Below, piece by piece: positions 31,201 to 36,799 of a stretch of DNA of 64,000 bases; the stretch's first letter is position 1; the number at the start of each line of letters is the position of its first letter. This DNA comes from Melissococcus plutonius ATCC 35311. GTDB lineage: Bacteria > Bacillota > Bacilli > Lactobacillales > Enterococcaceae. A program made the translations under genes and the position numbers. The stretch spans positions 1,779,501-1,843,500 of the forward strand of contig NC_015516.1 in the NCBI RefSeq assembly GCF_000270185.1, read 5' to 3'. The notes beneath the pieces were generated by a model that was not told the origin of the DNA, did no database searches, and worked only from the letters and a program-made list of their open reading frames with translations.

Positions 31201-31902
31201 AGTACGTGAATCATTTGTATTTTTATGTAAATCTTTTTCAATTGTATTACGTAAACTTTCACTATCTCCAAAGATTTCAAAAATCGTATCATCTGATCCA
31301 AATCCTAAAGCACGAACAAGAACAGTCAATGGAATTTTACGTGTACGGTCAATCCTTACATAAGAAATATCTTTTGCGTCCGTTTCTAACTCTAGCCAAG
31401 CACCACGGTTTGGAATAACAGTTGAACCAAAACCTTCTTTGCCATTTTTATCAACCTTGCCATGAAAATAAACACCCGGGGAACGAACTAACTGTGAAAC
31501 AATTACCCGTTCTGCTCCATTAATAATGAACGTACCCATTTCAGTCATTAAAGGAAAATCACCAAAGAAAACTTCTTGTGATTTTATTTCACCCGTCTCA
31601 CGATTGGTTAAGCGTAAGGTAACATGAAGGGGGGCAGAGTAGTTTGCATCATGCGCACGTGCTTCTTCTACTGTATATTTTGGCTCTTTTAGTTCATAAT
31701 CAACAAACTCTAAAGAAAGCTTTCCTTGAAAATCTTCAATAGGTAAAATGTCCTCGAACATTTCTCGTAATCCTTCATCTAAAAACCATTGATAAGAGTC
31801 TGTTTGGATTTCGATTAAATTTGGTAATTCTAGCACTTCACTGATACGTGCGAAACTTCTACGTTCGCGATGTTTTCCGTATTTTACTACGTGTCCAGCC
31901 AA
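28282..31902 (-). CDS. rpoB: DNA-directed RNA polymerase subunit beta
   Basis: This subunit is about 1206 residues. The rifampicin-binding cluster [18 protein letters not shown] then [11 protein letters not shown] is of the sensitive type. Other landmarks are [25 protein letters not shown] and [15 protein letters not shown]. The start is placed at TTG 31902 ([12 protein letters not shown]), 6 bp after a GGGGTG site; a GTG at 31911 is in frame but is part of that site. A 240-nt leader with two terminator-like hairpins separates it from a strong promoter at 32144-32172. Confidence 0.97.
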
Positions 31903-32011
31903 GTTCTTCACCCCTTTGAGTATATTTCTACCAAAACTGACCTAAAAAATTACATTTAAGTTACTTTGATTATAATTACGTAACAAAAAGCATTTTTTGC
32001 GGTTTTTAGGC

Positions 32012-32070
32012 AAAAAAAACCAAAAATAGAACATGCCCTCAAGACTAATTTTCATGAGTTTCTATTTTTG
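32012..32070 (-). terminator. Terminator-like hairpin A in the rpoB leader
   Basis: CAAAAATAGA (32021-32030) pairs with TCTATTTTTG (32061-32070), with further CTCA/TGAG or CATG/CATG pairing in the loop. On the minus strand the stem is followed by G then T8 (32019-32012), the form of an intrinsic terminator. It is about 110 nt before the rpoB start, downstream of the rpoB promoter. Confidence 0.68.
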
Positions 32071-32080
32071 TTTTCCATAT

Positions 32081-32109
32081 AAAAACCGGAACGGACAATA
32101 TTTCGTTCC
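32081..32109 (-). terminator. Terminator-like hairpin B in the rpoB leader
   Basis: On the minus strand GGAACG (32109-32104) pairs with CGTTCC (32093-32088), followed by GG and TTTTT. It lies between the rpoB promoter and hairpin A. Confidence 0.6.
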
Positions 32110-32143
32110 TGCTTTAATATTTTAGATAGTTTTCGCATTCTTC

Positions 32144-32172
32144 ATTCTACTATAGCTTATATAATTTGTCAA
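32144..32172 (-). promoter_or_regulatory. rpoBC promoter
   Basis: On the minus strand, a consensus -35 TTGACA (32172-32167), a 17-bp spacer and -10 TAGAAT (32149-32144). This is the best promoter match in the window. It would start transcription near 32137. Confidence 0.82.
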
Positions 32173-32691: not shown

Positions 32692-33666
32692 ATGTCTACA
32701 AAAAATGATGTCTTAGCCTTTCTTATGAAACATGCACCTGAACGTGTATCAGGGGAATACATGGCAAATGAATTAACCATTTCTCGAACTGCTATTTGGA
32801 AAGCTATTAACCAATTACGGAAAAGTAGTTTTTCAATTGAAAGTAACTCACAAGGTTATCTTTATAAAGAGACTAACCTGCTATCTATTCCTGGTATAAA
32901 TGCCAATCTTTGCTCTACTGCACCTACCTTAACAATAAAAAAAATGGCGAATTCTGAATCAACTATGAAAGATGCAAAATTAGCGATTTTAGATCAGACA
33001 CCTGCACACACTTTATTGGTCGCTGATATGCAAAAATTTTCAGTTGGGCGCTTTGGCCGTCCATTTTTTGCAAAGCCAGGTGCAGGTATTTATATGAGTT
33101 TAATCCTTCATCCAAATCAAAAATTTAGTGAAATTACAAATTATACCATTATTACTGCTGTTGCAGTTGTACGCGCATTAAATAAGCTATTAGATATTTC
33201 TCCAAAAATTAAGTGGGTTAATGATATTTATATAAATGATAAAAAGGTCTGTGGCATTCTTACTGAGGCGATCAGTGATATGGAAGCAGGTCAAATTTCT
33301 AGCATTATTATTGGTATTGGATTAAATTTTTCTATTAAACAAATTGAATTTCCAGATGAATTACAATCAAAAGTTACTTCTTTATTTCCAAATGGTCAAT
33401 ATACCGTTACAAGAAATGAATTAATTGCAGAAATTTGGAATCAATTTTACAAAATATTAGTCCATTCAACGAATGAGCAAATCATCGATGAATATAAAAA
33501 ATATTCATTGGTCTTAGGAAAAAAAGTTTCTTTTATGCAAAATAAAAAAGAATACACAGGATTGGCAGAAACGATTAATTTAAAAGGTGAGTTAGTCGTT
33601 CGATTAGTAGATGGCACTAAAAAATTGCTCTGTTCTGGCGAAATTAGCTTACAAGCAATTTATTAG
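32692..33666 (+). CDS. birA: Biotin--protein ligase / biotin operon repressor
   Basis: This 324-residue protein attaches biotin to carboxylases and can repress biotin genes. It has an N-terminal winged helix (about 1-60, VSGEYMANELTISRTAIWKAI), a central ligase domain (about 85-265) and a C-terminal SH3-like domain (about 275-322). KWVNDIYI and KVCGILTEA are normal. The biotin-loop motif, usually AGRGRFGRPF in relatives, reads FSVGRFGRPF (residues 116-125): the second GR of GRGR is kept, the first is replaced by SV. The start has AAGGAG. It is divergent from rpoB. Confidence 0.92.
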   Translation: MSTKNDVLAFLMKHAPERVSGEYMANELTISRTAIWKAINQLRKSSFSIESNSQGYLYKETNLLSIPGINANLCSTAPTLTIKKMANSESTMKDAKLAILDQTPAHTLLVADMQKFSVGRFGRPFFAKPGAGIYMSLILHPNQKFSEITNYTIITAVAVVRALNKLLDISPKIKWVNDIYINDKKVCGILTEAISDMEAGQISSIIIGIGLNFSIKQIEFPDELQSKVTSLFPNGQYTVTRNELIAEIWNQFYKILVHSTNEQIIDEYKKYSLVLGKKVSFMQNKKEYTGLAETINLKGELVVRLVDGTKKLLCSGEISLQAIY

Positions 33667-35120: not shown

Positions 35121-35160
35121 TTCTATTTATTCTTCAATCTTTCTATTCATTCTTCAATCT
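35121..35160. repeat. 20-bp tandem duplication at the lyase stop codon
   Basis: Two 20-bp units (35121-35140 and 35141-35160) differ at one position. The unit at 35141-35160 contains the last codons and stop of the lyase gene; the other copy lies just past it. Confidence 0.85.
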
Positions 35161-36799
35161 CTAATTTAATCATATCATATGCAACATAACCATTTGTTTG
35201 AAAATGAATAACATTGTTATCTATTAATTGTTCAGCTGATATTTTCATTTGTAATTTTTGGGTACGTCCACCTGTTACACTTGAACGATAAGCGCTTCTG
35301 TCATTTTCAAAAGTATACGTATTCAAAATTGTATCATTTAATTTCACTGTGTATTTTATATCTGTTCCTGCTTGTTCACTACTTGCTTGATAGGACGTTC
35401 CAGCTAAGCAAACGGTTAACAAGTAATTTTTAGCTGTTTGTTTAGGCTTTTTAAACTGAATCATCCATTCTCCGCGATTACTTTGCAGATAGTACCAATC
35501 ATCTTTACTACCAATTCGATAGTTAAGAGTTGCAGGTGTTAAATCTTTCCAAATATGATTACGTAATTGATCGCCAAATTTAAATGATTCAGTTGTTTTG
35601 GAATAGCCACCTATTTTCCAAATTAATGGTTTCTCTTTGTAATCAACGATTAATTTATCTAGATTTAAATTTTTATTAATCTTATAACTACCTAAATAAA
35701 ATTCTTCTGAAATACCTGTATGACGAATATATGCATACATATAATAAGTGTCCGGCTGGATGTGATTCATTGTAAAGTGATTACTTTTCTTTGTTTCTGC
35801 ATAATAGATGTGTCCTGCATTATGATTATAGTAGTCTCCTTTTTCATTAGTTAAAACAACCATCCAATCATAAGTTTTATCTTCCTGATTCAGTTGAAGA
35901 TTACCTGTTAAAGTAAATACTTGTTTTGGATAGTTTTTCTCCTTTGATGATAACCAAGTGTTAGGAAAATGTACTTATTCCTGTGCAACTCTTTTCTTTA
36001 CATCGGTTATTTTATCATTTCCATCATTTATATAGATACACCAAGGTCCATATAATTTTTGCCAATTCGGTGAGGCGTTAAATGAATCTACACCATAATG
36101 TGATCCACTTAAACAATTTAGTGTAATTCCATCATAATGAACCAATAAATCTTGTCTTAAAGGACCGGAGGCATACCCACTTTTATCAATTGGAATAAAC
36201 CAAAAACCGTATTTTTCACCATAATGTCCCCAAAAATCATTGTCTTTGAAATATCCAGAGTAATCATATTTAGAATAAATATTACTATTCGAGTATTTCC
36301 CACTATCAGGTAATTTAAATGTTTCATCTTGAAGCTTTTCATGTTTAGCCAAATATTTTTAAGAAGGTTGCAGTCCTTGACGTTCATGATTATAGGCAAT
36401 TGGAAACAATGTTCTATTCACCCGATAAACAGTTCTAAATTGGCCAATTTCATGCCCTACATCTTTTGTCGAAGCAATAACATAGCCATAGATGGCTGGG
36501 TCATTGTTTTTAACAAGTAAATGATACTCTAGATTTACTGGTGTTTTATCATCAATATAGGCAATGTGTATCCAGTTATTATTGTTTTCAATTACTTTTA
36601 ATTCTGTTGGTGTGACGCCATGAAGTTGTCCATCAAAATAATCGCAATAAAAACTATTTCCTTCTTTAGGACTATTTTTGACATCAATCATTTCTTTTCC
36701 TTTATATAATAGTGAAGTTGCTCTCACTTTTGAAGAAAAGGTAATCTCTATTAGTTGGTTTTTTATTTTACAAGCAAATCCATTAACAATTAATTCCAT
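35147..36799 (-). pseudogene. Rhamnogalacturonan lyase (polysaccharide lyase family 4), two internal stops
   Basis: PL4 enzymes cleave the rhamnogalacturonan I backbone of pectin by beta-elimination. One frame of 550 codons is interrupted by TAA at 36359-36361 (codon 147) and TAA at 35975-35977 (codon 275). In order it holds an N-terminal beta-sandwich catalytic domain (about 1-270), an fn3-like domain (about 285-360) and a C-terminal carbohydrate-binding-like domain ending YDMIKLEI. Lys 177 in YSKYDYS and His 234 in GSHYG match the spacing of the PL4 catalytic Lys/His pair. There is no signal peptide, so the intact enzyme would be intracellular and act on imported oligomers. The start ATG at 36799 has GAGGTGA. 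The family call comes from motif recognition only. Confidence 0.75.

Follow-up and report, generated by a model that had tools for sequence, protein, structure and literature searches.

A conserved terminator-like hairpin behind the Lacto-rpoB element suggests attenuation of rpoBC transcription in Lactobacillales

Ahead of rpoB in Melissococcus plutonius ATCC 35311 and, as our comparisons indicate, across the Lactobacillales, a promoter, the Lacto-rpoB hairpin (Rfam RF01709; its hairpin is called P2 below) and a terminator-like hairpin are conserved as one unit, with compensatory changes in the stems. The most plausible role of this unit is attenuation of rpoBC transcription, with read-through set by the state of RNA polymerase or by a factor that binds the P2 loop and not by alternative pairing within the leader; we put the probability of this reading at roughly 0.6. 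The leader family itself is already known. What sequence comparison adds to the Rfam model, which ends at 58 positions and contains neither, are the putative attenuator and a closing helix, P1. Coordinates (Table 1) are positions in the window, the whole stretch of 64,000 nucleotides that was analysed (NC_015516.1, positions 1,779,501 to 1,843,500).

Table 1. Features of the rpoB leader in the order in which they would be transcribed
Feature	Position	Strand	Basis or remark
rpoB promoter TTGACA-17-TAGAAT	32144..32172	minus	11/12 consensus match
P1 closing helix, 5' strand (mRNA 5' end)	32115..32137	minus	pairing probability and cognate test
Hairpin 1, Lacto-rpoB (P2)	32088..32109	minus	RF01709 match and covariation
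P4, 5' strand, flanks attenuator	32080..32087	minus	partner 32008-32001
Hairpin 2, intrinsic-terminator-like putative attenuator	32012..32070	minus	kept in 149/149 loop-bearing relatives
P4, 3' strand, beyond U tract	32001..32008	minus	partner 32080-32087
TGTWA-type repeats	31949..31985	minus	TGTTAC 31985, AGTAAC 31965, TGTAAT 31954
P1 closing helix, 3' strand, just upstream of ribosome site	31929..31952	minus	pairing probability and cognate test
Ribosome site AAGGGG and rpoB start codon TTG (most likely start, 31902-31900)	31900..31917	minus	shared with most relatives

A sequence-only reading of this DNA had placed a near-consensus promoter and a leader of about 235 nt with two terminator-like hairpins in front of rpoBC, with birA divergent. 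The promoter is indeed present, and of 149 relatives, 146 have an equivalent (at least 9 of 12 positions) at fixed spacing, 20-60 nt upstream of the loop. From its position, transcription is predicted to start at about 32138-32136 on the minus strand. Since the TTG codon behind the AAGGGG ribosome site is most likely the rpoB start and +1 falls at about 32137, the leader would measure about 235 nt, in agreement with the earlier estimate. The gene itself is identified as rpoB by TIGR02013, and NCBIfam models also identify rpoC and birA, the latter at 32692 and divergent as had been claimed. The leader as a whole folds better than its shuffles (z -2.6). Candidates for a second promoter 3' of the terminator (TTGTWA-17) were rejected, as by eye they are not conserved between families.

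Hairpin 2 was described in that reading as ending in T8, and this description holds. Eleven perfect pairs (32070-32060 with 32031-32021, minus strand) stand before U8 at 32019-32012, the stable hairpin directly before a U tract that is typical of an intrinsic terminator. A strict terminator pattern (loop 3-8 nt) detected neither hairpin of the leader, and it missed hairpin 2 because of the 28-nt internal part. In an RNA that ends at the U tract, hairpins 1 and 2 are predicted to form together with a probability near 1. A terminator-like hairpin is found in 149/149 loop-bearing rpoB leaders, a count that gives the frequency of the terminator together with the loop and not its share among rpoB genes, since the leaders were picked for carrying the loop (they comprise this one, 80 named loci that are nearly all from Enterococcaceae, streptococci, and diverse genera of other families). 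The U tract begins 55-89 nt past the loop, the folding energy ranges from dG -9.3 to -19.0, and only 10 of 1080 dinucleotide shuffles reach the observed energy with a U tract. A run of 5-9 U directly 3' of the hairpin is common to all families although the arms differ; those of the streptococcal terminator, AGCAGUUAAAUC/GAUUUAGCUGCU-UUUUUG, are wholly different, and its 5' arm corresponds to the conserved 3' tail of RF01709. We therefore regard hairpin 2 as a conserved terminator-like attenuator from which an RNA of about 125 nt would be expected, and its A/U-rich stem may terminate weakly.

Hairpin 1 consists of a 6-bp stem, GGAACG/CGTTCC (32109-32104 with 32093-32088, minus strand), the conserved loop AAAUAUUGUC at 32103-32094 and a T5 run. 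It carries the RF01709 loop GAAAUAUUGUCC in the 5' leader of rpoB in a member of the Lactobacillales, the order to which that family is confined, and an E-value search with Rfam models matched RF01709 over 32122-32068 with 38.2 bits (E 6.5e-5). The match goes unseen in a standard annotation run because it falls narrowly below the gathering score of 40 bits; near relatives within the Enterococcaceae score up to 43 bits at the same place. Lacto-rpoB was classed as a likely cis-regulatory RNA in the paper that first described it (Weinberg et al., 2010, PMC2864571), an Enterococcus RNA map reports its expression within an E. faecium 5'UTR (PMC7724050), and a survey of group B Streptococcus notes promoter and terminator signals at the element in at least one strain (PMC6064168). 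The passages of these three papers that deal with Lacto-rpoB assign it no mechanism, and in the literature that we found no function has been assigned since 2010.

Both hairpins are kept by compensation. In an alignment of 58 sequences, double-sided changes are seen at 10 of the 11 P2 pairs and at 6 of the 11 pairs of the terminator arms; the P2 stem covaries while its loop is nearly invariant. Taken together, P2 and the terminator arms have 83.8% paired cells against 64.1% after shuffling, and a covariation score of 0.544 against 0.200 (0/500 shuffles) and at most 0.194 when slid, figures to be read with the proviso that the alignments were made by MAFFT and that shuffles and cognate tests remove relatedness only in part. 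Covariation among Enterococcaceae, which the sequence-only reading had named as a check, is confirmed for these arms and extends across the order. We built a covariance model, R1, that spans P2 and the terminator. At E <= 0.01 it finds a match in 213 of 295 genomes of the Lactobacillales and in 71 of 75 genera; the present leader, with 83.2 bits (E 6e-13), gives the sole match in its genome. RF01709 matches 182 of the 295 genomes at E <= 0.1, including many streptococci that R1 misses. Among 228 genomes of the class outside Lactobacillales, RF01709 has no match at E <= 0.01 and R1 has five weak ones (E 8e-4 to 7e-3), about chance level, two of which (G302 and G310, where the position of rpoB is known) sit away from rpoB. 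In the listed genomes of one family (f7), which we take to be the Listeriaceae, RF01709 has no match and R1 a single marginal one (E 0.008). The spacing to the gene varies within the order: in several streptococci (leaders L005, L016 and L019) the stretch from attenuator to rpoB is longer, with about 280 nt from loop to start.

How might read-through be decided? The sequence-only reading had mentioned anti-termination, and for anti-termination by an alternative pairing we find no comparative support. In a scan of 57 leaders, each divided into 12 segments, all 66 segment pairs were compared for pairing of a leader's own segments against that of segments crossed between families. The P2 arms (mean rank 0.033), the terminator arms (0.089) and the pair formed by the 5' end and the stretch just ahead of the ribosome site (0.24) stand out. 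The remaining pairs lie at 0.395-0.575, with no conserved antiterminator among them. Kissing of the P2 loop with the AAUAUUU after the terminator gave no signal either (P2loop-elem, rank 0.487). Because no competing pairing is conserved, read-through is presumably not set by an alternative RNA fold. In the leader of B. subtilis L10, L10(L12)4 binds and acts through a competing antiterminator fold. The rpoB leader differs in that its 66-pair scan reveals no such conserved fold, which speaks against control by a switch of the riboswitch or L10 type. The L10 leader nevertheless offers a Gram-positive example of a machinery gene under transcription attenuation (PMC4538822).

A more appealing scenario is that the polymerase itself, or a factor at the P2 loop, makes the decision. 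RNA polymerase would start at about 32137 and first form P2; about 125 nt into the transcript the 11-bp hairpin with U8 would form, upon which part of the polymerases would release an RNA of about 125 nt while the others continue into rpoB. Read-through could be governed by the polymerase (its speed, Nus factors) or by a hypothetical factor that recognises the near-invariant P2 loop, as a conserved loop on a stem that is free to change suggests a bound partner. We infer that termination occurs and is partial, and infer likewise its efficiency and any signal. Attenuation of RNA polymerase synthesis, as the sequence-only reading had suggested, is the reading that best fits a conserved terminator-like hairpin 2, and the Lacto-rpoB leader probably lets these bacteria set the amount of RNA polymerase before the gene is read. 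In phage HK022, nascent put RNA hairpins near the promoter alter how polymerase handles downstream terminators; put may serve as a working analogy for P2, although P2 is not known to contact polymerase. It is conceivable, if doubtful, that the P2 loop binds RNA polymerase or an elongation factor, such that free or modified polymerase shifts read-through of the terminator some 60-90 nt downstream in an autogenous, put-like manner. If so, a whole bacterial order would share this form of RNA-based control over the synthesis of beta and beta'.

The leading alternative, which we consider unlikely, is that hairpin 2 is a fixed, unregulated partial terminator that holds RNA polymerase in constant ratio to other products, with P2 as a stabilising 5' hairpin. 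The E. coli attenuator between rplL and rpoB is thought to set just such a constant product ratio. The lack of a conserved antiterminator pairing is compatible with this view, and so is the presence of terminator-like hairpins before rpoB in Bacilli that lack P2: such a hairpin occurs in 26 of 46 rpoB leaders (L183-L228, the 260 nt ahead of the gene) of Listeriaceae-like and other Bacilli, against 23% of shuffles, a count that includes possible terminators of upstream genes and near-duplicate leaders. Some of these hairpins take the form GAAAATGAG...CTCGTTTTC-TTTTTGTC, and the genomes of these 46 leaders yield no RF01709 match. The rpoB attenuator may therefore be older than Lacto-rpoB. However, a mere stabiliser would not need a near-invariant loop on a freely changing stem.

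The leader contains a further helix that bears on the fate of the mRNA. In the full-leader fold the two strands of P1 pair with a probability near 1, leaving the 5' end fully paired. Cognate P1 segments outpair non-cognate ones across families, and shuffling the 3' segment lowers the expected number of pairs from 9.6 to 4.5 (53 leaders; mean rank 0.206); this support is statistical, as 15 of the 53 leaders have fewer than six expected pairs. Composition cannot by itself account for this, as the same segments give no signal in their other pairings. By this comparative evidence P1 is a third conserved helix besides P2 and the terminator. As P1 forms only after read-through, it cannot decide termination; in the read-through mRNA it would bring the 5' end into pairing with the stretch just upstream of the ribosome site and probably protect that end. 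It could be argued from the compensated P1 and the wholly paired 5' end that P1, P2 and hairpin 2 control stability, RNase III/J processing or translation of the rpoBC mRNA, with little termination. We think this improbable, as a run of 5-9 U kept in all families would be needless for a processing site. A helix flanking the attenuator, P4, has a probability of about 0.8 in the full-leader fold and is paired in most Enterococcaceae; as an order-wide element it was rejected, as the signal is seen within that family only and is absent across families (link-post, 0.455).

The sequence-only reading had counted two terminators, which in series would yield RNAs of about 60 and 120 nt. The GGAACG/CGTTCC hairpin and its T5 are present in this genome as it had said, but the terminator role assigned to them does not stand: a T-run (at least 5 T in 8 nt) follows hairpin 1 in just 34 of the 149 leaders, and comparison identifies the hairpin as Lacto-rpoB, a recognition-type element, leaving hairpin 2 as the only terminator-like one. 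An RNA of about 60 nt is accordingly not expected, and serial termination is very improbable. Equally remote is a role of the terminated RNA of about 125 nt as a trans-acting small RNA, for which the conserved single-stranded loop might pair with other transcripts, since the genome holds no second R1 copy and the three further exact loop matches in M. plutonius all lie outside hairpins. Copies of the loop in phages were also set aside: of about 240 matches in viral contigs, the few with a stem resemble, by eye, chance or protein-coding sequence.

For attenuation with read-through set by polymerase or a loop-binding factor, the closest functional parallel is the rpoBC attenuator of E. coli, a terminator before rpoB that lets part of transcription through. 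It lies between rplL and rpoB of one operon and is not known to have a P2, whereas the putative attenuator of M. plutonius directly follows rpoB's own promoter and is coupled to a conserved hairpin. In E. coli, more of the transcription passes the attenuator under rifampicin (Newman et al., 1982, cited in PMC6181997). Control of the amount of RNA polymerase core is poorly known in Gram-positives, and we found no direct study of their rpoB leaders. Lacto-rpoB with its putative attenuator and closing helix, present in nearly all Lactobacillales genera, offers a concrete, testable attenuation system, for which easy hosts such as Lactococcus lactis exist; a control search detects Lacto-rpoB in L. 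lactis.

Several other features of the window deserve mention. The TGTWA-type repeats 3' of the attenuator resemble an OmpR/PhoB-family box (WalR: TGTWAH-N5-TGTWAH). Across Lactobacillales, half-sites at spacings of 11, 20 and 31 form 34, 23 and 19 pairs, respectively, where 0.2-0.3 would be expected. The repeats belong to the part of the leader that is transcribed, no promoter is obvious downstream of them, and they are a candidate DNA or RNA element. At 35147-36799 (minus strand), three adjacent ORFs resemble pieces of one broken gene; two have no Pfam match and the 3' piece matches PF14683 (E 8e-18) and PF14686, domains of polysaccharide lyase family 4. A ribosomal protein L10 leader (RF00557, 83.7 bits) lies at 38759-38626 on the minus strand, before rplJ-rplL.
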